Assembly: GCA_017550535.1 (NCBI GenBank)
Contig: JAFZOS010000065.1
Location: 186,001-250,000 of the forward strand
Source of the DNA: Lachnospiraceae bacterium
GTDB taxonomy: Bacteria > Bacillota > Clostridia > Lachnospirales > Lachnospiraceae
Length of the DNA stretch: 64,000 nt
Reading direction: 5' to 3'
Notes under the pieces: generated by a model
Database searches by the model: none
Seen by the model: only the letters and a program-made list of their open reading frames with translations
What the model was told of the DNA's origin: nothing
Shown: in pieces, positions 1 through 11,045 of the stretch
How positions within the stretch are numbered: the first letter of the stretch is position 1
Layout of the letters: each line of letters starts with the position of its first letter
Made by a program: the position numbers and the translations under genes

Positions 1-1444
1 TCTCATGAGACATATTGGAAAGGAATGCCGACTTTGCCTCGCTCGCCGCTATGGCCCGCTGCGACATATCGATAAGCTTCTCCCTTTCTTTTCTTTCCTT
101 ATCGATATCCTCCGCCAGCCACAGGACATGCGATATCCTTCCTTCATCGGAACGTTTTGACACGATGAACCTTACACGCATCCATTTACCGTTCATTGTA
201 AGAAACTCAAGCGCCAGCGTATCTATATCATGCATGCGTTCATCAAGTGTATCAAGATCGACGAAAGAGAGAGTATCTTCTTTCATCTTTTCATCCGTTA
301 CGTTAGACATTACCTTCTTTATAGTGCTGCGCGCATTGTTATGTTCATCTCCGACAAGCGAATTGACGATACTATTCTCGGATTTTATCTCGCTGAAAGA
401 ATCATCCGGCAGATCCACATCATAAACCGACATATAGATATTTGATATAGATGATATCTGTTTATTTAAATGTTCCGCTATCCTGCTCCGCTGATTTGAT
501 TTGTTCATGATATGAGACAGCACAACAACGGCGGCGATAACGAGGATAATGGTGATCCACAGGAGCATATTAAGAGGGCGGAAAGTACTTGTCGCATTCT
601 TGACGGAAAGACAGCACCAGTCATTCTCGATTTCGGCCATATAGGCTATATAGCGCGAGCCTGCATAATCAAATTCAAAGTAGCCCTTCTCGGTATTCCT
701 TGCCTCGTCCACGAGGACTGCCCAAAATGTACCGCTTTCATCACTGTAGTTTTTTCCCACCTCGCTCCTGTCCGAATGGGCAACTACCATATTATGGCTG
801 TCAAGTATGACCTCGTAGTCCGAGCTTCCGGACCGAACCGCTTCTTCCGTCAGCTCCTGTATCATGTCGAGCGTTATATCCATCGATACGACACTCTCGC
901 CGTCTACAAGAGACTTGGCTATGGCCATCATTACATTTCCCGTCTGGGCATCCATATAAGGCTCTATCATTGTGATCTTGCCGTTGTTTCCGATCGCCTT
1001 TTTATACCAGGGACGTTCCGTCGCAACAAAGTCATCATCCGGAACCCACAGAACACCGTCAAGGAACTCGCCGTTGACGTATGCGTACAGACCGGTCGTG
1101 TTCTCAAAGACAGTACTGGTAACTGCCGTCGACTGACCGACGAGATAATCAAGTATCTCCGCATTGGAACGACCATCCTCAATCATACCGTCCATGGTAT
1201 ATGCCGTAAGCTTAATGGCATCGATACTCGTTGACAGATAATCGTTAAAACTGTCTGCCGTCTGCATCGCACTCACCTGGCCGTCCTTTATGATACCGGA
1301 CCTTTTTTCCGTATAGATCATATTATAATATGACAGTATTATGCCCACAAAAAACACAATAACGGTTCCTGTGATAATATAATTCTTTATCGCATCACGT
1401 CTTTCGGTTCCGATCTTAATCTGCAGCCTGTCAAATCCACTCAT
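1..1444 (-). CDS. Hybrid-type sensor histidine kinase, N-terminal part (runs off the window)
   Basis: Membrane sensor kinase; 481 codons are visible and the C-terminus lies beyond base 1. I translated the minus strand directly: it starts MSGFDRLQIK, has a membrane segment at about residues 20-41, an extracellular dCache-type domain (about 45-280, with ERPWYKKA and EPYMD motifs), a second membrane segment (about 291-312), a PAS-like region (about 320-440), a short coiled linker, and reaches the phospho-acceptor histidine of SNMSHE at residue 480 just as the window ends. ATP-binding and any receiver domains must lie outside. The ATG at 1444-1442 overlaps the TGA of the upstream giant kinase by one base, so the two are probably translationally coupled. 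The H-box flank (ASEAKSAFLSNMSHE) is nearly the same as in that kinase, which suggests paralogy. The ligand is unknown. Confidence 0.85.
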   Translation of the reverse strand, partial: MSGFDRLQIKIGTERRDAIKNYIITGTVIVFFVGIILSYYNMIYTEKRSGIIKDGQVSAMQTADSFNDYLSTSIDAIKLTAYTMDGMIEDGRSNAEILDYLVGQSTAVTSTVFENTTGLYAYVNGEFLDGVLWVPDDDFVATERPWYKKAIGNNGKITMIEPYMDAQTGNVMMAIAKSLVDGESVVSMDITLDMIQELTEEAVRSGSSDYEVILDSHNMVVAHSDRSEVGKNYSDESGTFWAVLVDEARNTEKGYFEFDYAGSRYIAYMAEIENDWCCLSVKNATSTFRPLNMLLWITIILVIAAVVVLSHIMNKSNQRSRIAEHLNKQISSISNIYMSVYDVDLPDDSFSEIKSENSIVNSLVGDEHNNARSTIKKVMSNVTDEKMKEDTLSFVDLDTLDERMHDIDTLALEFLTMNGKWMRVRFIVSKRSDEGRISHVLWLAEDIDKERKEREKLIDMSQRAIAASEAKSAFLSNMSHE

Positions 1445-4400
1445 CAAAACTGCTTCCCTTCATATGCATCTAATATCGCAGCCGGATCACGTTTAATCGC
1501 AGCATCCTTAAGCATAAGGAAGAAATCCTCCCGGTCTTTCGGAATACTGTAGTCTTCCATTTCTTCAAATACCATATCAAGACTTTCAAAATCACCAAGC
1601 TCGGCCGCCGACTTTATCTGTTCAAAAACCATGCTCATAAGATACTCATCGGCTTCAGGTTTTCCGGAAGCTTCCTGTTCCCCGGCAGCTTCCTTTTTAT
1701 CCTCAAACAGGTCGGACAACGGCTCCTTCAAACCGGTGAATGACGTCATAAACGTTCCGTGATGTTCCCTGATGTAACCTGTATCTTCTGCCTTTCCGGC
1801 ATCCTCAAGCAGCTGAGCTTCCTCCGAAAGACGGACAGCCCCTATAAGACGGAGGGAACTCTTGGCCGCATGAACTTTTATCGTATAATCCTTTATGTCT
1901 CCTTCCTCAAGGAAGCGCTCGATCTCAGCCGATTTTTCATCTATTGAGCCAAGGAACATTTTAAGCAGCGGCAGATAATCCTCAAAGGAACCGCTGTTTG
2001 TTATTCCGGTATCAACATCAATACCGATACCCGGTGCCATTTCACGGAAGCGTATTTCAATCGGATCGTCCGCTGTTATATCATCAATGCTCTCATCTTC
2101 ATTAACATTCTCGACCTTATTTCGGTCAAGGTAGAAAAGGAGCATATCCTCGAGTTTAGCGGAATCTATGGGCTTTGACAGATAATCATCAAACCCGGCT
2201 TCTATATACATCTCCCTCGCCCCCGAAACCGCATTGGCCGTAAGACAGATCGCGGGAGTCGAAAGATTCGGATTCTTCTCCTGGGCTTTTAATTCCTTAA
2301 GTGTCTCAATCCCGTCTTTTCCGGGCATCATATGATCGAAGAACATGATGTCATACTTCTTGTCATATGCAAGAGCAAGGCCTTCATCACCGCTTAAAGC
2401 CATATCGATATTGACCTTCGTTTTCTTAAGAAGGCTCTTGAAAACCATAAGGTTTATCTTGTTATCGTCGATCACAAGCACATTAGCACCGGGTGCCGTA
2501 AACTTCTCGGTATAGGTTTTACGCTCACTCAAAAGACGTTTATATGCCGATTCATAATCACCCAGTTCTTCCCATCTTACAACCTTCTGCTTAAGCACAA
2601 AACCAAACTCGGAACCGCTTCCGTAGGTACTCTTCACATTAAGAGATGAACCCATCATTTCAAGCAGGCTCTGAGTTATGTTCATTCCGAGGCCCGCTCC
2701 TTCAATGTTGCGGTTCCGTTTTTCTTCTATCCTGTCAAACTTTTCAAACAGCCTTGAAATATCTTCGGGTTTTATTCCTATTCCGGTATCGCTTACCGAT
2801 ACCATAAGGTTAATGTGTTCAGCATCCGCTTTCTCATAACCGATACGGAAGGTTATCGAACCCTTTTCCGTATATTTCACCGCATTGGTCAGGAGATTTG
2901 TGATAACCTGTTTTATACGGATCTCATCACCGTAAAGTCCTTTGGGTATTGCAGGATCAAAGTCGAGCTTTATCATCAGGCCCTTGTCATCAGCCCTTAA
3001 CTGGACCATATTTACAAGGTCATTGATAACGGAAGAAAGATCGTACTCCACCGGCTCGATCATTATACTTCCCGCCTCGATCTTTGAAAAATCAAGTATA
3101 TTGTTTATAAGACCGAGGAGTGTGTTCCCGGCGCTCCGTATACTCTCCGAATATGCCAGGATATTGGGATCTTCGCACTCTCTTGTGACCATCTCATTCA
3201 TTCCGATGATCGCATTGATCGGTGTGCGTATCTCATGCGACATATTGGCAAGGAATGCACTCTTGGCATGTGCTGCTTCCTCGGCAACGGCTTTTTCCAT
3301 CTCCAGTTCATGAACCATTGTCTTTTCGTAATAGATACAGTTATCCCTGTGGTTGAAACCGTTGTGTATCGCTGTAGCCATCTGCGTGCAGTTTTCATAA
3401 CCGCAGCAGGTACAGTCTATATGGCGCGATTCTTCAGTAAACTTGTTCATGCTCATAAAGATAGAATCAAGCTGAGCCGCATTCGGAATTTCATATCTGC
3501 ATTCCGATGACCTGTCGGTATAACCGCGAATGTAATCGTTAAGATCCAGTTTTTCAAACTGACTGTTATAATTCTTAAGCCTCTCCTTGGGGGGATCGGG
3601 CCTTGACCATGCGTCGCCGCTTATTGCCTTCTTCGATTCCTCGCGGATATCAAGAAGCGCATAAAGAGCGTCATCGGTCTTTGACTTATCGGGATTTACC
3701 GCAGTTCCGCAGATACAGCCTTTTTCACAGTTAAGCGCATCGATAAACAAAAACGGGGTCTTGCCGTCCTTTATCCTGTCGCTGTTAAGATGCATCCATT
3801 CATAAAGGTGACGCTCGCCTTCTATCTGGCGTATGTACACTTCATCCCCAAGGAACCACTTAACGTTTTCAGCCAGCCCGCCCGGAGTCGGATAAAATGA
3901 GCCGAGTCCGTATTCTATCTCACTGTGAACTGCAGGACCTTTTATATCGTGTTCCCTCACATACTTCATCAGATGCTCGAAGGTAACGTTATACTGGACC
4001 AAGCCGCTGTTATGCGGATCCTCTATTTCAAGCTTCTTGGCTATACAGGGACTTATGAAGGCAAGCCTGTCCGTGATACCCATTTCCTTTCTTGCATATA
4101 TGGCCGCACACATAAGAGGACTCTGTACAGGGAACAGCTTTCCAAGAAGTTCGGGAAGATACCTTTCTATATACGAAACAACTGCAGGGCACGGCTGAGA
4201 TATCCCGCCTGTAAAACCATACTTCTCAATATAATTAAGATATCCCCAGGTAGTTATATCAGCACCGAATGCGACGCTTATTATATGGCCTATACCCATC
4301 GCCTTAAGTCCGCCCAGAACGCTCTCATACTCATCGGGATAATTTGCCTTAAATGCCGGTGCCAAAAGGAGTGATATCTTTTCGCCGTTTTTAAGATCCT

Positions 4401-7227
4401 CAAAGAAACGCTCCGTGTCGTCCATAAACTCGCGTGCTCCGTGAACGCATACATCTATGCAGCTTCCGCAGGCGACACATTTACTTCCGTCTACGTCTAT
4501 TCTTGCCTTTCCGTTTTCTTCTTTGGATACGCAGGCACCGATAGCCGAACATACCTTGATGCACTTGTTACAACCGATACAGTTTTCGTTCGTATAGACT
4601 ATGCTCCCGGGTACGGGCATATCTGCAGGCACCGTATCCTCATCGAACATGGAAGCCATTAAGCTCTTAAGTTCCCTGCATTTATCAATAAAACCGTCAT
4701 GATTGTCATTTAGATACGATGCATCCCCGGCTGCACCCGCATCCTCAAGCAGCTGGAGCTCCCTGCCGAATCCTTCGGCGCCTATTGTCTTTACCGAACT
4801 CTTTAAGGAATGTATTTTGACCGTATAATCCTTCAGGCTGCCGTTCTTTAAATATGCATCGATCTCTTCCACGAGTCCGTCGAGTGAATCATAAAATGCC
4901 TCAAGGACCATCAGGTAATCCTCGATCGATCCGACATTTGAAATACCGGCCCTCATATCGATCATTCCCTGAGCTTCAAAATGATCACCGGCCTTATCCT
5001 CATTTGCTGCAGCAGGAACCGGAACAGCCTCATTAAGATCGCCCGTATCCTCATCGTCCTGTATTTTCACCTTATCTGCCGGCAGGAACGTAATAAGCAG
5101 TTCCTCAAGCTTTTCATGATCGATCGGTTTTGTAAGATAATCGTTAAATCCATAGGAGATATACTGTTCCCGTGCACCTGAGATCGCATTTGCGGTAAGG
5201 CATATCACCGGCGTATCGCTGTTTAAGCCGTCCGGAACCGCTTTAATCTCCTTAAGCGTTTCTATTCCGTCTTTTCCCGGCATCAGGTGATCCAAAAAGA
5301 TAATATCGTATTTGGTTCCGGACGCCATCCTTATTCCTTCATCACCGCTGTCGGCAGTATCTATCTTAACATTTGTCTGCTTTATTAGGCTCCTGAACAC
5401 CACCAGGTTCATCGGATTATCATCAACCGTAAGCACCCTGGCATCAGGCGCCGTAAAACGCTCCCTGTATTTTGAATGTTCTTTTGGATTACTGCGGGAC
5501 GGCCCTTCATAATCACCCAGGATGTCCCATGAAGCAACCCCCTGTTTTACGGAGAATCCGAATGTCGAACCCTGACCGTACCTGCTCTTAACGGTAAGGG
5601 ATGAGCCCATTAATTCAAGCAGGCTCCTGGTAATGCTCATACCAAGTCCGGTACCTTCAATGTTCCGGTTGCGCTTCTCATCTATCCTTTCGTACTCGGA
5701 AAAGAGCCTGTCAAGATCTTCGTCCTTTATCCCTATACCGGTATCACTTACCGACACATTCAGCATTATGCTGTCGGGTTCATCCTTTAACCTTTCATAT
5801 CCCATCCTGAAGGTAACGGTTCCCTTATCGGTATACTTCACGGCATTTGTAAGTATGTTGGTTATTATCTGTTTAAGACGTACATCATCACCGTTAAGCC
5901 TCCTCGGGATACGCCGGTCAAAATCAAGCCTGAGGTAAAGGCCCTTATCATCCGCGCGCGACTGTATCATGTTAACAAGATCGTCCACAAATGAAGACAG
6001 ATCATAATCAACCGGTACTATCTCAATCTTTCCGGCTTCTATCTTCGAAAAATCAAGTATGTCGTTAATAAGTCCCAGCAGCGTACTGCCGGCATTCTTT
6101 ATATTTTCGGAATATGAAAGAACGGAATCATCATCCGATTCCCGCAGGATCATTTCGTTCATGCCGAGGATCGCATTTACGGGAGTACGTATCTCATGTG
6201 ACATGTTGGAAAGGAATGTCGATTTGGCTTCGCTTGCCGCGATAGCCTGCTCAGACTTAAGCGTCAGCCCCTGGGCTTCCCTGTTCTTTTTCTCCGACTG
6301 ACCAAACAGAATAAGAAATACGGCAATTATCAACACCGCAACCAGTATTGTTTTGATCAGCGGACTGCGGAGATTGTCAAAATCCTTCGTGGCATCAACG
6401 ACCGATACACAGGTCCATCCGTTCTCAAGGGGCGCCACATATGTCATATAATCACTGCCGCCGTTGTTAAGATAGAAGTATCCGGCCTGTGAAGTGTTGA
6501 TCTGTCCGGCGATCGCCGCCATAAAAGGATCCTCATTGTTATTAAGCTGCGTTCCGACAAGGCTGCTGTCCGAATGCGCGATTATCTGGCCTTTTCCGTT
6601 TATTACAAACTCTGCATATGAACGTCCGCTTAAAACATGTTCCTCTATTATCTCCTGTATATCATTCATGGACAGGTCTATACTGACAACACTGCTGTTA
6701 TCGCACAGTGTTCTGGCAATAGCTATCATCACAGCTCCTGTGTCAAGGTCAACATACGGATCGACGATAACGATGGCTCCGTTTCCCGCCCTTGCTTCAA
6801 CGTACCACGGCCTTACGGTAGGATCATAGCCCTCTTCGGGTACCCAGCCGGAACCATCCATGTATACCCCGTTTATATATCCGTATATACCGGTAGTATC
6901 CGCTATAAGCGAGTCCCCCACGGCGATAGTCTCGTTTGTCAGATAATCAAGGATATCTTCATCAGGCCTGCCGTCCCTTATCATATTGTCAAGAGTGAAA
7001 GCAGCCAGTTTCAGAATGTCAAGGCTTGCAGACATGCGGTTATCTATCTGGTCGACCGATTCGATCGCATTGATCCTGCCCTTGTTTATGATGTTTGCAC
7101 GGGTCTCGGAAAAAAGCCTGGTATAATAGACAAATACCACGCCCACAAAAAAGGCAGCTATGATCACGTATAAGAGTATCCTTATTATGTGTTTTTTTCT
7201 GTTTCCGCCTGCTCCGTCAGATATCAT
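1444..7227 (-). CDS. Double hybrid histidine kinase with embedded [FeFe]-hydrogenase-like sensor domain
   Basis: Giant multidomain signalling protein of about 1927 residues (ATG at 7227, with GGAG five bases upstream, preferred over a GTG at 7233). Order: membrane segment (15-37); dCache domain (40-280; Y134, R139, W141, Y142); second membrane segment (about 290-310); HisKA with H344; HATPase (about 445-560); receiver with D646; Hpt with H806; two [4Fe-4S] clusters (about 873-933, CxxCxxC types); hydrogenase H-cluster domain (about 945-1195) with C1013 in QPCPA, C1061 in SPCIAKK and C1167/C1171 in NCEKGC; a further Cys-rich FeS motif (CTCCGYENC, about 1268-1300); then a second HisKA (H1331), HATPase, receiver (D1631) and Hpt (H1786). 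There is no DNA-binding output. H-cluster domains fused to signalling domains are known as sensory (HydS/HsfB-type) hydrogenases; the fusion between two full phosphorelay modules is the unusual part. It probably senses H2 or redox state plus an extracellular ligand. Domain calls are firm; function is inferred. Confidence 0.9.
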   Translation of the reverse strand: MISDGAGGNRKKHIIRILLYVIIAAFFVGVVFVYYTRLFSETRANIINKGRINAIESVDQIDNRMSASLDILKLAAFTLDNMIRDGRPDEDILDYLTNETIAVGDSLIADTTGIYGYINGVYMDGSGWVPEEGYDPTVRPWYVEARAGNGAIVIVDPYVDLDTGAVMIAIARTLCDNSSVVSIDLSMNDIQEIIEEHVLSGRSYAEFVINGKGQIIAHSDSSLVGTQLNNNEDPFMAAIAGQINTSQAGYFYLNNGGSDYMTYVAPLENGWTCVSVVDATKDFDNLRSPLIKTILVAVLIIAVFLILFGQSEKKNREAQGLTLKSEQAIAASEAKSTFLSNMSHEIRTPVNAILGMNEMILRESDDDSVLSYSENIKNAGSTLLGLINDILDFSKIEAGKIEIVPVDYDLSSFVDDLVNMIQSRADDKGLYLRLDFDRRIPRRLNGDDVRLKQIITNILTNAVKYTDKGTVTFRMGYERLKDEPDSIMLNVSVSDTGIGIKDEDLDRLFSEYERIDEKRNRNIEGTGLGMSITRSLLELMGSSLTVKSRYGQGSTFGFSVKQGVASWDILGDYEGPSRSNPKEHSKYRERFTAPDARVLTVDDNPMNLVVFRSLIKQTNVKIDTADSGDEGIRMASGTKYDIIFLDHLMPGKDGIETLKEIKAVPDGLNSDTPVICLTANAISGAREQYISYGFNDYLTKPIDHEKLEELLITFLPADKVKIQDDEDTGDLNEAVPVPAAANEDKAGDHFEAQGMIDMRAGISNVGSIEDYLMVLEAFYDSLDGLVEEIDAYLKNGSLKDYTVKIHSLKSSVKTIGAEGFGRELQLLEDAGAAGDASYLNDNHDGFIDKCRELKSLMASMFDEDTVPADMPVPGSIVYTNENCIGCNKCIKVCSAIGACVSKEENGKARIDVDGSKCVACGSCIDVCVHGAREFMDDTERFFEDLKNGEKISLLLAPAFKANYPDEYESVLGGLKAMGIGHIISVAFGADITTWGYLNYIEKYGFTGGISQPCPAVVSYIERYLPELLGKLFPVQSPLMCAAIYARKEMGITDRLAFISPCIAKKLEIEDPHNSGLVQYNVTFEHLMKYVREHDIKGPAVHSEIEYGLGSFYPTPGGLAENVKWFLGDEVYIRQIEGERHLYEWMHLNSDRIKDGKTPFLFIDALNCEKGCICGTAVNPDKSKTDDALYALLDIREESKKAISGDAWSRPDPPKERLKNYNSQFEKLDLNDYIRGYTDRSSECRYEIPNAAQLDSIFMSMNKFTEESRHIDCTCCGYENCTQMATAIHNGFNHRDNCIYYEKTMVHELEMEKAVAEEAAHAKSAFLANMSHEIRTPINAIIGMNEMVTRECEDPNILAYSESIRSAGNTLLGLINNILDFSKIEAGSIMIEPVEYDLSSVINDLVNMVQLRADDKGLMIKLDFDPAIPKGLYGDEIRIKQVITNLLTNAVKYTEKGSITFRIGYEKADAEHINLMVSVSDTGIGIKPEDISRLFEKFDRIEEKRNRNIEGAGLGMNITQSLLEMMGSSLNVKSTYGSGSEFGFVLKQKVVRWEELGDYESAYKRLLSERKTYTEKFTAPGANVLVIDDNKINLMVFKSLLKKTKVNIDMALSGDEGLALAYDKKYDIMFFDHMMPGKDGIETLKELKAQEKNPNLSTPAICLTANAVSGAREMYIEAGFDDYLSKPIDSAKLEDMLLFYLDRNKVENVNEDESIDDITADDPIEIRFREMAPGIGIDVDTGITNSGSFEDYLPLLKMFLGSIDEKSAEIERFLEEGDIKDYTIKVHAAKSSLRLIGAVRLSEEAQLLEDAGKAEDTGYIREHHGTFMTSFTGLKEPLSDLFEDKKEAAGEQEASGKPEADEYLMSMVFEQIKSAAELGDFESLDMVFEEMEDYSIPKDREDFFLMLKDAAIKRDPAAILDAYEGKQF

Positions 7228-7288
7228 AAACACTCCGTAGCATCAGATCATATCGATGCGCATAAAACGACACAATAACACATAATAT

Positions 7289-7316
7289 ATTATACCGAAT
7301 ATCCCTGTTTTTTCAA
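7289..7316 (-). promoter_or_regulatory. Sigma-A type promoter for the giant hybrid kinase
   Basis: Read on the minus strand: TTGAAA (7316-7311), a 16-base spacer, then TATAAT (7294-7289). It sits immediately after the stop codon of the MBOAT gene and about 60 bases before the kinase start, so the two kinases probably form their own transcription unit. Match to consensus is 5/6 and 6/6. Confidence 0.6.
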
Positions 7317-8687
7317 TCAAAAACGGAAGTATAAGAACGGATTAAATGAAGCATCGGCAAGATATGCAATGGAAAGTATGAAAATGACAGTCAATACGGG
7401 CACGGTAATAAACGCCCGGTCCTTTATCTTACTGTAAATCCTGTTGCCGATCCCTGACGACAACAGACAGCCAAGTATAAATACGACTCCGTAATTCCTT
7501 AAATAATACAGCGCCTCAGGGGACGATCCTGCGGTAAACAGCCTTGACAGATATAAGGCAAGAGCCTTAAGGTCCGTTATGGCAAACAGCATCCAGCCAA
7601 ATCCTATCGCCAGCAGTGAATATATATGTGACAATATACGGTTCTTCTCAAGAAGCTTTGAAAAACCCGCCCGTTCGATCATGAGGAGCACAAAGAAATA
7701 CAATCCCCACAAAATGAAGTTCCAGTCCGCCCCATGCCAGAAGCCTGTAACAAACCAGACTATGAAAAGATTAAATATTGTCCTTATCTTTCCTTTTCTG
7801 TTGCCTCCGAGCGGTATATACAGATAATCCCTGAACCATCCGCTTAAGGTCATATGCCACCTTCTCCAGTATTCGGTAACAGACCTCGATGTATACGGTA
7901 GGTTAAAGTTCTTCGGAAATTCAAATCCGAGCATCCTTCCAAGTCCTATCGCCATCATCGAGTAACCGTTAAAATCAAAATATATCTGTAATGTATAAGC
8001 AAGCATTCCAAGCCATGCAAGCGGTGCCGAAATCCTGCCGTATCCTATCTGTTCCAGTTCCTTCCAGTACTCGCCGGCATTATTGGCTATAAGTACCTTG
8101 GAACCGAGTCCCAGAACAAACAGCTTAAGTCCCTCCTCAACATCCGTAAGGGTTATCTTCCTTTCCCTAAGCGCCGCCGATACATCGGAGTATACCACGA
8201 TGGGACCGGCTATGAGCTGGGGGAACATGCACAGGTACGTACCAAGGTTAACAAACGACTTTTCAACCTCCACTTTACCGCGGTAGAGATCGATCACATA
8301 AGACATTATCTGGAATGTGTAGAAGCTTATCCCAAGCGGTAACGTTATGTCAACCTTACTGATGCCCGCACCGCTTACGGCATTGATATTCTCGATAAAG
8401 AAATTGATATATTTGAAAAAGAACAGCATGCCCACATCAAAGATCAGCGCGCACACAAGGACGGGCTTATCCGCCCGCCCTTTATAGTGATGCATAAGTA
8501 TGCCCGCATAATAATTTACGAGAATGGATATGGTCAGCAGTATAAGATATTTGGGTTCGCCCCAGCCGTAAAATACAATGCTCCCGATAAACAGGACAAT
8601 GTTCTTAAACTTCACGGGCACAAGCCAGTATATCGTGAAGAATATGGGTATGAACCAAAATACAAACAACAGAGAACTGAATATCAT
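7317..8687 (-). CDS. MBOAT family membrane O-acyltransferase (AlgI/DltB-like)
   Basis: Integral membrane protein of 456 residues that probably transfers acyl (often acetyl) groups to an extracytoplasmic polysaccharide or other cell-surface acceptor. It is hydrophobic throughout, with many membrane spans. It carries the family signatures: YWRRWHMTLSGWFRDYLYIP around residue 270 and FWHGADWNFILWGLYF around 320, which includes the conserved active-site histidine; length is normal for AlgI-like proteins. Its start is only seven bases after the glyA stop and has no clear Shine-Dalgarno sequence, so translation is probably coupled to glyA. The SGNH/AlgX/DltD-type partner usually beside such genes is not present on either side, so the acceptor cannot be named. 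Confidence 0.9.
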   Translation of the reverse strand: MIFSSLLFVFWFIPIFFTIYWLVPVKFKNIVLFIGSIVFYGWGEPKYLILLTISILVNYYAGILMHHYKGRADKPVLVCALIFDVGMLFFFKYINFFIENINAVSGAGISKVDITLPLGISFYTFQIMSYVIDLYRGKVEVEKSFVNLGTYLCMFPQLIAGPIVVYSDVSAALRERKITLTDVEEGLKLFVLGLGSKVLIANNAGEYWKELEQIGYGRISAPLAWLGMLAYTLQIYFDFNGYSMMAIGLGRMLGFEFPKNFNLPYTSRSVTEYWRRWHMTLSGWFRDYLYIPLGGNRKGKIRTIFNLFIVWFVTGFWHGADWNFILWGLYFFVLLMIERAGFSKLLEKNRILSHIYSLLAIGFGWMLFAITDLKALALYLSRLFTAGSSPEALYYLRNYGVVFILGCLLSSGIGNRIYSKIKDRAFITVPVLTVIFILSIAYLADASFNPFLYFRF

Positions 8688-8694
8688 AGTTTTA

Positions 8695-9933
8695 TCAGAT
8701 CAGCGGATACTTCGCGGTCAGTTCATCAACTATAGCCCTTGCCTTTGCAACACCGTCAGCGCCTTCCTTTACCACAAATGCGATAGCCTCGGCGATCCTA
8801 TCCATATCATCGGTGTTCATTCCCCTGGATGTAACGGCCGGAGTTCCAAGCCTTATGCCGCTGGTTACGAATGCCTTCTGAGGATCATTCGGAACAGTGT
8901 TCTTATTAGCGGTTATATGAGCTTCATCAAGCAGTTTTTCGATCTCCTTGCCTGTAAGTCCCTGCGGACGGAGATCAAGCAGCATAAGATGATTATCCGT
9001 TCCTCCGGATACGATCGAAAGTCCCCTGTTAAGAAGCCCCTTGGCAAGAGCCTGTGCATTATCTACTATATTCTTACCGTATTCCTTAAACTCGGGCGAG
9101 AGCGCCTCCTTTAAGCATACAGCCTTTGCTGCGATGACATGCATGAGAGGTCCTCCCTGCGTTCCGGGGAAGATAGCCTTGTTGAAATTGAACTTATCGG
9201 CTGCTTCCTGATTGCACAGTATGAGTCCGCCCCTTGGCCCGCGCAGTGTTTTATGCGTAGTTGTGGTCACAACATCTGCATACGGGATAGGACTCTCATG
9301 ATATCCCGATGCCACAAGGCCTGCTATGTGAGCCATATCGACCATGAGATATGCACCCACTTCATCACATATCTCCCTGAACTTCTTAAAATCGATCTTC
9401 CTTGCGTATGCACTTGCACCGGCAAGGATCATCTTCGGCTTGCATTCAAGCGCTATGCGCCTTACTTCATCGTAATCGATAAATCCTTCGTCATTAACTC
9501 CGTAATGTACGCAGTTAAAATATTTACCGGACATATTCACCGGAGAACCGTGAGACAGATGTCCGCCGTGATCAAGGTTCATACCCATGAAAGTATCTCC
9601 GGGTTCAAGCATGGCAAAGAATACGGCCATATTGGCCTGCGCTCCCGAATGAGGCTGAACATTGGCATAATCACAGCCGAACAGCTTCTTAGCCCTCTCC
9701 CTGGCCAGATCCTCAACTATATCAACACAGTCGCATCCGCCGTAATACCTTTTTCCCGGATAACCCTCCGCATATTTATTTGTGAGCGGACTTCCCATGG
9801 CAGCCATTACCGCCTTGCTTACCCAGTTTTCCGATGCGATGAGCTCGATATGACTGTTCTGCCTCTCCTGCTCCTTAACTATGGCGTCCGCGATCTCGGG
9901 ATCGACCGCCCTTACTTCATCCAGTGAATACAT
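8695..9933 (-). CDS. glyA: Serine hydroxymethyltransferase
   Basis: PLP enzyme that interconverts serine plus tetrahydrofolate with glycine plus 5,10-methylene-THF in the cytoplasm, supplying one-carbon units. It has 412 residues, the usual length. The PLP-binding lysine is K228 in [14 protein letters not shown]; other family motifs include the N-terminal ELIASEN and the glycine-rich YYGGCDCVD segment. The ATG at 9933 has GGAGG seven bases upstream. It is first in a two-gene unit with the MBOAT gene (seven-base gap) and has its own promoter-like sequence. The assignment is secure. Confidence 0.98.
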
Positions 9934-9985
9934 ACATCTACCTCCAATTTGAATTGACTAAACTAAGGCACAAAACCCTCGTAAC

Positions 9986-10014
9986 ATTATATAGGAACTC
10001 ACCTTAAAACACAA
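9986..10014 (-). promoter_or_regulatory. Probable glyA promoter
   Basis: On the minus strand TATAAT (9991-9986) is preceded by 17 bases and TTGTGT (10014-10009). The -10 matches consensus fully; the -35 matches only half. It lies in the 92-base gap between the glycosyltransferase gene and glyA, which is AT-rich and otherwise featureless. Confidence 0.4.
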
Positions 10015-10025
10015 TAACAGAAAGA

Positions 10026-11045
10026 TCAGTTAAACCCGACGAACCTCTGTGCTATCTTGTACTCGAGCACCGATATCTTCCTTCCGCCGCGGCCGGGTAT
10101 GTTCATCGATGTCCCAAGCAGCCCGAAACGCAGCCTGAAATAATCCCGCCCGTCCGTATTCTTAAGATATTCCCACAGCCCCTTCTTCTTTTCCAGAGCC
10201 TCCTCGCTTCCGTCCTTGATCAAAAATATGGAGGAAACCGTCATCATTATGTCCAGATAGTTGAGCATATACTTCTCAAGCTTGGGATCAAGGCACCGCC
10301 TGGTACCTGCCATGTAATCGATCATGATCCTGTTTACACGCAGCTGCTGATCGATACGCTTAATCATTATCTCCTCGTTTACCGACTGGTCCTCACGGCC
10401 GATATAATATCTGTACAGATTAACGTCCATATAATACATGGTATTAACATACGGAAGCGGTTCAAACACAAAAATGTTATCCACATAGAAAGTATGCTCG
10501 GGAAGAGTCATCCTGCATTCCTTAAGCAGCTTTGTCCGGTAGATAACCGAATGCATAAGAAGATACTGCCCTTTCTTAAAATGCCTGACATCCTTCCATG
10601 TAAATATCTCATCTACCGGCAGGGCCGACTTATAGGTCATCACCTTTTTATGCTCCTTGCCTTCCTTCTCGTATACGAAGTTGCATATCATAAGATCGAG
10701 CACCCTGCTGCCGCCGGCAAGATCCCTTAACTTATCAAGTACCTTTAAGTAAGCCGACTCCTTCAGCCAGTCATCGGAATCAAGCACCTTAAAATACATG
10801 CCTGTCGCATTTTCCATGCCTGTATTTACCGCACCGCCGTGCCCCTTGTTCTCCTGATGGATAGCACGTACGATACCGGGATACTTCGCGGCATATTCAT
10901 CCGCTACGGCTGCCGTACCGTCTTTTGAACCGTCGTTTATCACAAGTATCTCAACATCATCCCCGCCCGGGAGAAGGCATTCGATAGCCTTTCTCATATA
11001 AGCTTCGGAATTGTAGCAGGGAATAGCAATAGTCAATAGTTTCAT
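10026..11045 (-). CDS. Glycosyltransferase family 2 protein
   Basis: Predicted inverting GT-A sugar transferase of about 339 residues, likely acting in cell-surface polysaccharide or teichoic-type polymer synthesis. The N-terminus MKLLTIAIPCYNSEAY is the typical GT2 opening; VINDGSKDGT binds the nucleotide sugar and VLDSDDWL holds the DXD-type metal site. The chosen start is the ATG at 11045. An in-frame ATG at 11096 would add 17 atypical residues and overlap the upstream gene. A GAGAGAGG element lies about 16 bases before the chosen ATG, a longer gap than ideal. There are no membrane segments. Donor and acceptor are not predictable. Confidence 0.88.
   Translation of the reverse strand: MKLLTIAIPCYNSEAYMRKAIECLLPGGDDVEILVINDGSKDGTAAVADEYAAKYPGIVRAIHQENKGHGGAVNTGMENATGMYFKVLDSDDWLKESAYLKVLDKLRDLAGGSRVLDLMICNFVYEKEGKEHKKVMTYKSALPVDEIFTWKDVRHFKKGQYLLMHSVIYRTKLLKECRMTLPEHTFYVDNIFVFEPLPYVNTMYYMDVNLYRYYIGREDQSVNEEIMIKRIDQQLRVNRIMIDYMAGTRRCLDPKLEKYMLNYLDIMMTVSSIFLIKDGSEEALEKKKGLWEYLKNTDGRDYFRLRFGLLGTSMNIPGRGGRKISVLEYKIAQRFVGFN

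Follow-up and report, generated by a model that had tools for sequence, protein, structure and literature searches.

A hydrogenase-like module fused between two hybrid kinase relays in a Lachnospiraceae bacterium

What does a [FeFe]-hydrogenase-like domain sense when it lies between two complete histidine kinase phosphorelays in a single polypeptide, and do the two relays work together? This question is raised by a gene in a stretch of 64,000 nucleotides (hereafter called the window; positions 186,001 to 250,000 of the forward strand of contig JAFZOS010000065.1, assembly GCA_017550535.1) from a Lachnospiraceae bacterium. An initial annotation, made from the sequence alone, had proposed that the encoded protein integrates H2 or redox state with an extracellular ligand. 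We find that the structure it described is right and that the H2 function is unproven, such that the proposal is partly supported.

The observation of a single-frame fusion gene holds (Table 1). Its preferred start is the ATG at 7227, as in the initial annotation, with a GGAG 5 nt ahead that was recognized by eye as a ribosome-binding site. The domain order given there, namely dCache, kinase-receiver-Hpt, FeS/H-domain/FeS and a second kinase-receiver-Hpt, was borne out by Pfam and by alignment of the two halves with each other. Pfam identified two copies each of HisKA, HATPase_c and Response_reg, as well as Fe_hyd_lg_C (90.8 bits, cut-off 22.1, spanning profile positions 6-244 of 245), dCache_1 (54.2 bits, cut-off 45), Fer4_7 (28.1 bits, cut-off 27) and one Hpt domain (residues 1756-1818); the families that had been named beforehand (Fe_hyd_lg_C, HisKA, Response_reg, dCache_1 and Hpt) thus all appear above cut-off, Hpt once. 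A further FeS family, PF04060, stayed below cut-off (20.3 bits against 23). Pfam missed the first Hpt, which is 43.5% identical to the second over 108 aa (E 3.6e-31). Identity between the two kinase-receiver halves amounts to 64% over 395 aa, in agreement with the paralogy claimed for them. In both halves, the H-box, N-box, G1, G2, the receiver Asp and Lys and the Hpt His are intact, such that each possesses the DHp His, CA boxes, receiver Asp/Lys and Hpt His of a hybrid kinase phosphorelay; the DD pair of the first receiver (VDDNPMN) escaped the pattern search and was identified by eye. Pfam found no PAS domain in the fusion protein (E 0.001), and the NCBIfam matches listed (25 of 183) include none for the fusion stretch.

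Table 1. Features of the fusion gene, its protein domains and its immediate surroundings, with positions in the window
Feature	Positions	Strand	Remarks
Next operon gene, dCache-kinase-receiver-Hpt	1..1447	(-)	1088 aa, truncated at the window edge; overlaps the fusion gene by 4 bases
Fusion gene	1444..7233	(-)	single open frame, 1929 codons
C-terminal tail	1447..1686	(-)	same tail after Hpt in several related kinases
Second Hpt	1729..2031	(-)	H1788 (HAAKSS)
Second receiver	2128..2496	(-)	D1633
Second histidine kinase (DHp + CA)	2566..3306	(-)	H1333 in H-box; no PAS ahead
C-terminal FeS motif Cx2Cx4Cx16C	3337..3414	(-)	C1274, C1277, C1282, C1299; motif as in PMC8163306
Hydrogenase-like H-domain	3499..4428	(-)	residues 936-1245; ligands C1015, C1063, C1169, C1173
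Two N-terminal [4Fe-4S] motifs	4435..4602	(-)	C885, C888, C891, C895; C919, C922, C925, C929
Fusion joint	4603..4647	(-)	lacks the C-tail seen after Hpt in several stand-alone dCache kinases
First Hpt	4648..4992	(-)	H808 (HSLKSS); by homology to the second Hpt
First receiver	5068..5454	(-)	D648
First histidine kinase (DHp + CA)	5539..6282	(-)	H346 in H-box
TM helix, extracellular dCache_1, TM helix	6334..7146	(-)	residues 30-300; TM helices by eye
Amino-acid receptor motif in dCache	6676..6828	(-)	Y136, R141, W143, Y144, Y160, D186; aligned by eye
Sigma-70-like promoter match TTGAAA-16-TATAAT	7289..7316	(-)	11/12 match, in the gap separating the fusion gene from MBOAT

With respect to the hydrogenase-like module, a profile of 13 H-modules matched solved [FeFe]-hydrogenases (7p5h, E 1.3e-25; CpI 4xdc, E 2.1e-20), and together with the Fe_hyd_lg_C score this assigns the domain to known families. 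In the numbering of PMC8163306, C1015 aligns with the L1 ligand Cys, P1014 with the proton-transfer Cys (C299), and S1061-P-C1063 with M353-P-C355, and the pairing of L1167, C1169 and C1173 with M497, C499 and C503 is seen only in a weak, secondary alignment piece. The four Cys ligands that a functional H-cluster hydrogenase would have, and which had been predicted for this protein, are present, C1015 and C1063 in the main profile match and C1169 and C1173 by the weak secondary piece. In a core alignment of 62 rows (the window and 61 of 65 related loci, L132, L134, L135 and L138 having no match to the needed segment), these four ligands, both Cys quartets of the dicluster as well as P1014, S1061 and L1167 are invariant. 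The first Cys of the C-terminal Cx2Cx4Cx16C motif is found in all 62 rows and the other three in 61, with one gap.

The sequence features of group D (M2e) hydrogenases that were compared are found in the fusion, namely two N-terminal [4Fe-4S] motifs, an H-domain, the C-terminal Cx2Cx4Cx16C motif, Ser in place of M353, Pro in place of C299, and the absence of PAS. The PAS domain that in HydS of group C (M2f) follows the C-terminal FeS motif was not found by Pfam (E 0.001). The H-module thus looks like group D, or like group C without PAS. The group D protein TamHydS likewise has Leu at the CpI M497 position and Ser at M353 (PMC8163306), and Pro at the C299 position is given for approximately 10% of sensory hydrogenases in the accessible part of PMC10055695. 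According to the available text of PMC13104023, the C-terminal cluster of TamHydS is neither reduced by nor responsive to H2, which argues against a simple electron path from the module to the kinase.

The capacity for a functional H-cluster was judged by the maturases HydE, HydF and HydG, and none of them was detected in the genome of the window, which is 98% complete but a draft of 103 contigs in which a locus may have been missed. The best HydG score was 18.5 bits (cut-off 312), the best HydF score 94 bits (cut-off 326), and HydE had no match at E 1e-60. This makes it uncertain whether the H-domain receives its 2Fe subcluster, and H2 doubtful as a ligand in this organism. Among 14 control genomes, Thermotoga maritima was the only one with HydE and HydF matches at E 1e-60, and a single genome lay above the HydG cut-off. 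Across 37 genomes of the genus, HydG was found in 21, HydE in 20 and HydF in 21, and all three were undetected in the same 16, that is, in the genome of the window and in 15 of its 36 congeners. The same holds for 7 of the 17 genus genomes with a completeness of 90% or more and a contamination of 5% or less. We also hand-picked 18 relatives from the 65 loci (those of L074 and L075 also figure in the genus set, as G020 and G025). All three maturases were undetected in 11 of these, two of which are already counted in the genus, and the 11 include XBB2008 (L079) and Butyrivibrio CB08 (L093), both isolates by title. Five of the 18 have all three maturases (AD3010, V9D3004, P6B14 and the genomes of L109 and L086), and the genome of L076 has HydG and HydE and no HydF match. 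In LC2019 (G437), HydE and HydF are accompanied by a sub-threshold HydG match of 178 bits (C8:49245-50201).

Is the H-domain decaying where maturases are undetected? Its mean identity is 82.0% among rows from genomes in which they were not detected (10 rows including the window, 45 pairs) and 78.3% in the maturase-positive set (4 rows, 6 pairs, with L076 lacking HydF). The second kinase is below the H-domain both times, at 72.4% and 63.9%, respectively. This comparison covers rows with a full second kinase; among the loci of the 18 picked genomes, those without one are L079 and L129, which lack the CA domain, L109 and L110, which are fused and lack it too, and L115, which has a GGDEF output. 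By this measure, the H-domain is under selection whether or not maturases are detectable. Conservation of the domain in cells with undetected maturases weakens H2 as the ligand and raises the possibility that the module reads redox through [4Fe-4S] clusters.

In this context, one has to consider that the module may be an H-cluster-free sensor, in which the H-domain carries only its [4Fe-4S] cluster, with no 2Fe subcluster, and responds to redox, O2 or another small molecule instead of H2. The frequency with which maturases are undetected, in the genus, in its good-quality genomes and in the picked relatives alike, speaks for it, as does an H-domain identity that is as high without maturases as with them and exceeds that of the second kinase. 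However, all 14 maturase-less genus genomes that were inspected (14 of the 16, leaving out G010 and G017) keep another hydrogenase-type protein whose L1-L3 motifs are like those of solved or known enzymes, HydA-like in 13 of them and in G023 only of another type, presumably group B. Since such proteins make little sense without maturation, the maturases may have been missed or replaced. Furthermore, neither the four ligands nor the pocket residues next to them vary across the 62 rows, and the fused relatives P6B14 and L109, which are described below, do possess maturases. We regard a sensor free of the H-cluster as a serious though rather unlikely account. The HydA of the window's genome was also considered as a decayed enzyme, because its L1 motif TSCSPGW has Ser at the position of the second Cys of CpI; the same Ser is found in the solved HydA1 7q4v, and we rejected this idea.

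The input on the other side of the membrane is the dCache domain. The motif residues of the dCache domain, on which the initial annotation was silent, pair with Y121, R126, W128, Y129, Y144 and D173 of PctA, which are the residues named for amino-acid receptors in the accessible part of PMC10104139, and the domain carries the motif of the dCache_1AA type. A dCache profile matched PctA, PctB and PctC, among 14 distinct solved sequences. The R, W, Y, Y and D of the motif are kept in 12 of 12 aligned dCache domains (that of the window and 11 partner or fused domains). The first Tyr is Phe in L128, and the dCache domain of the next operon gene has the same motif residues, with Phe first.

How, then, did the two halves come together? 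The genome of the window has four Fe_hyd_lg_C genes, which were typed by eye as a bifurcating HydA, a methyl-accepting protein (L002), a GGDEF-EAL protein (L003) and the fusion; the HydA adjoins HydB- and HydC-like genes (neighbours also by eye). The fusion is the only Fe_hyd_lg_C frame above 1100 aa in the 37 genus genomes, the next having 1069 aa, and among 397 family genomes, 64 of which have an H-module match at E <=1e-150, it is the only such frame above 1000 aa. A contig scan yielded the 65 related loci mentioned above, 63 of them titled Lachnospiraceae or Butyrivibrio, with many titles naming ruminant hosts, and their architectures were called by BLAST with segments of the window. An H-domain match is present in 64 loci, of which 54 bear a kinase, 7 are joined to a different output and 3 are truncated. 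The kinase-bearing loci comprise 43 with a CA domain, 9 without one and 2 that are fused. The H-half thus belongs to a Lachnospiraceae family of H-domain kinases that are usually separate genes. Other outputs joined to the H-module are the methyl-accepting L002 and GGDEF-EAL L003 (by eye) and the GGDEF protein L115 (by Pfam).

At least 3 kb of upstream sequence is available for 41 of the unfused kinase loci, and 11 others have a shorter stretch. In 7 of the 41, the upstream sequence has a dCache kinase gene at a distance of no more than 200 bp, two of them with a 4-base and one with an 8-base overlap; in one (L074) the distance is 815 bp, and 33 have no such gene upstream. L074 has the nearest H-module, with 88% identity in the FeS-H-FeS core, and its H-kinase is located at 6989-10138. 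Between its two kinase genes, at 6174-6988, is a frame that by eye resembles a periplasmic amino-acid-binding protein, the same stretch being present in L018.

A second fusion was found in two relatives, the isolate (by title) P6B14 (L110), with a protein of 1519 aa, and a metagenome-assembled genome (L109), with one of 1497 aa and 89% core identity to the former. Their dCache call is by BLAST (Pfam dCache_1 is below cut-off in L110 and unlisted for L109). Here, the first receiver runs directly into the FeS motifs with no first Hpt, and the second kinase retains only its DHp, followed by Hpt, such that the breakpoints differ from those of the window's fusion. The search for the same architecture in other genomes therefore did return a fusion, but one of a different build, lacking the first Hpt and the second CA. 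In the kinase tree, the N half of the window protein groups with dCache kinases and the C half with H-kinases, which indicates that the fusion joins two established lineages. Two changes are required on the careful H-core tree, and none of 200 bootstrap trees could be explained by one. In the AU test, a single fusion clade was rejected on the dCache half (13 rows, p 0.007) but not on the H core, both with the careful tree (59 rows, leaving out L119, L120 and L123; p 0.144) and with the quick tree (61 rows, leaving out L119; p 0.72), in which a tree holding the three fusions together scored better. On account of the bootstrap trees, the rejection on the dCache half and the different breakpoints, we favour two independent origins over one. 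Neighbouring genes that fused repeatedly would be expected to function jointly, which suggests that the halves work together.

This argument has to be weighed against the idea that an ordinary group C1/D-type H2 sensor kinase was fused by chance, with the dCache half acting as a membrane anchor and no integration of signals. The Leu and Ser at the CpI M497 and M353 pocket positions and the C-terminal motif are as in TamHydS, the genome holds a bifurcating-type HydA with its HydB- and HydC-like neighbours, and unfused forms are the rule, all of which fit such a history. But the maturases were undetected, conservation and not decay is seen in both relays and in the ligand motif of dCache, and the trees favour about two fusions. 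A chance fusion of this kind appears doubtful to us.

Some relatives may also tell how the halves communicate. The H-side CA domain is missing in 11 of the 54 kinase-bearing loci, 9 unfused (L077, L079, L083, L084, L114, L117, L129, L133 and L137, which have DHp, receiver and Hpt) and the 2 fused (L109 and L110, in which only Hpt follows the DHp). According to Pfam, L079, L084, L129 and L137 have HisKA, receiver and Hpt domains and lack HATPase, and L109 and L110 each have one HATPase for two HisKA; the calls for the remaining five unfused loci are by BLAST segments. Where CA is absent, the H-side DHp must receive its phosphate from a different kinase or else work in some other way, and this is often the case in the family. 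That one kinase can influence another is known from GacS-RetS and from split histidine kinases, as the relatives without CA would require. Given the 64% identity of the halves, cross-phosphorylation between the two kinases of the fusion is plausible. The relatives without CA also suggest that the H-domain might act through the ATPase domain of the amino-acid kinase. A bolder combination of these thoughts, in which the H-domain is a [4Fe-4S] redox input in cells without an H-cluster, wired to the amino-acid kinase and acting via its ATPase domain, is conceivable and in our estimate quite unlikely; if true, fermentation state and nutrient supply would be summed in one molecule.

The operon continues downstream on the same strand with further phosphorelay genes, which lie mostly outside the window and do not figure in the initial annotation. 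They encode a receiver-GGDEF protein of 448 aa with an intact GGDEF motif, an HK-receiver of 683 aa, an HK-receiver-DegV-Hpt of 1127 aa and a receiver of 261 aa, followed by DHHW/AlgX-like and GDSL genes. Because one of the operon's receivers is thus joined to an intact GGDEF domain, c-di-GMP is a likely output. Homologues of the receiver-GGDEF protein (48-56%) occur in 3 of the 65 related loci, and of the 683 aa kinase in 21, mostly alongside a homologue of the 1127 aa kinase. A relay cassette of dCache kinase, receiver-GGDEF, HK-RR, HK-RR-DegV-Hpt and RR occupies L139 2568-13448 (same strand, downstream), and parts of it stand beside H-kinases in relatives. The DegV domain within a hybrid kinase looks unusual.

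Upstream of the fusion gene is an MBOAT gene, and between the two is the promoter match of Table 1, a consensus match only, as the region holds 20 matches against a shuffle mean of 14.6. The MBOAT acyltransferase (window 7317-8687) and the DHHW/AlgX-like and GDSL genes (L139 225-2596) flank the relay cassette and look like a split O-acylation set. Control of these flanking genes by the relay was considered and dropped, since homologues of MBOAT, DHHW and GDSL were not seen at the 60-bit limit in the 65 loci, many of which have short flanks, and no conserved link was apparent.

Taken together, the explanation that we favour, with moderate confidence on the basis of sequence comparison, is a membrane-bound two-input hybrid histidine kinase that would have been formed by fusion of neighbouring genes. 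An extracellular amino acid or a near relative would bind to dCache and set the activity of the first kinase. The cytosolic module of two [4Fe-4S] motifs, H-domain and C-terminal [4Fe-4S] motif would respond to H2, to the redox state of the ferredoxin pool or to both. A change in this module may pass via a short helix directly into the DHp of the second kinase, and the two similar kinases would probably phosphorylate each other's DHp. From there, the phosphate would travel from His to Asp to the Hpt His and on to the free receivers of the same operon, which are its presumed targets, with c-di-GMP made by the receiver-GGDEF protein as the likely output. The domains, catalytic residues, gene order, conservation and the second fusion of other build support this explanation. 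Against it count that a dCache partner lies upstream in only a minority of relatives, and that a single fusion was not rejected by the AU test on the H core. The proposal of a single protein with two inputs stands as regards its two sensors and two relays, but its H2 sensing is unsupported, with HydE, HydF and HydG undetected in this genome. A chain whose two relays act independently of each other, without cross-talk, would also be compatible with these data.

Production of two proteins from an internal start was rejected, because the joint has three in-frame ATG and one GTG and none of these codons has an obvious ribosome site by eye. That an assembly or sequencing artefact joined neighbouring genes is highly improbable: the assembly is a draft, the halves are paralogues that some relatives encode as separate adjacent genes, and no other matched frame exceeds 1069 aa in the 37 genus and 397 family genomes, but no exact repeat shared by the halves is longer than 17 nt, the GC content is an even 0.43-0.47 across 200-codon blocks, the joint is in frame, and P6B14 and a second genome carry a fused gene of separate build.

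The two-input kinase that we propose is of interest because H2 handling by rumen bacteria bears on methane, and H2 sensing by group C hydrogenases in these bacteria has been proposed (both in the available part of PMC6776011). Sensory [FeFe]-hydrogenases are still termed putative in the accessible parts of PMC8924675 and PMC13104023. A natural fusion to a full relay, together with unfused relatives and relatives without CA, several of which are isolates by title, makes H2, redox and amino-acid inputs readable as phosphorylation, and strains without detectable maturases render the need of a sensory hydrogenase for its H-cluster directly testable.

How does this protein compare with known systems? 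No such protein turned up in the accessible parts of the open-licence papers that connect sensory [FeFe]-hydrogenases to kinases (hybrid ones included), to phosphorelays or to dCache, in line with the initial annotation, which knew of none; the protein is not isolated, however, given the unfused kinases and the second fusion. With TamHydS of group D (PMC8163306 and the available text of PMC13104023), it shares the two N-terminal [4Fe-4S] motifs, the H-domain, the Cx2Cx4Cx16C motif, Leu for M497, Ser for M353, the loss of C299 and the lack of PAS. It differs from TamHydS in having Pro at the C299 position and in that TamHydS stands alone as a protein, with a kinase-like gene beside its own, whereas the window's module is fused to a relay and a second sensor kinase. 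With the putative [FeFe]-hydrogenases of HydDB group C1 (as given in part of PMC5037454), it has in common the coupling of a hydrogenase-like module to a histidine kinase, but it carries two kinase-receiver-Hpt relays and a dCache domain in one chain, and unlike HydS it has no PAS. The dCache_1AA receptors, as represented by PctA in the accessible part of PMC10104139, share the six motif positions and the profile match to PctA, PctB and PctC; PctA serves chemotaxis, whereas the output here is a kinase and the ligand is predicted from the motif. In contrast to GacS-RetS cross-talk and split histidine kinases (the available parts of PMC12148439 and PMC3591291), both kinases are located in one chain, and their cross-talk is presumed. 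The stand-alone H-domain hybrid kinases, as in L074, have the same H-half with 88% core identity, in a separate gene and without the dCache half.
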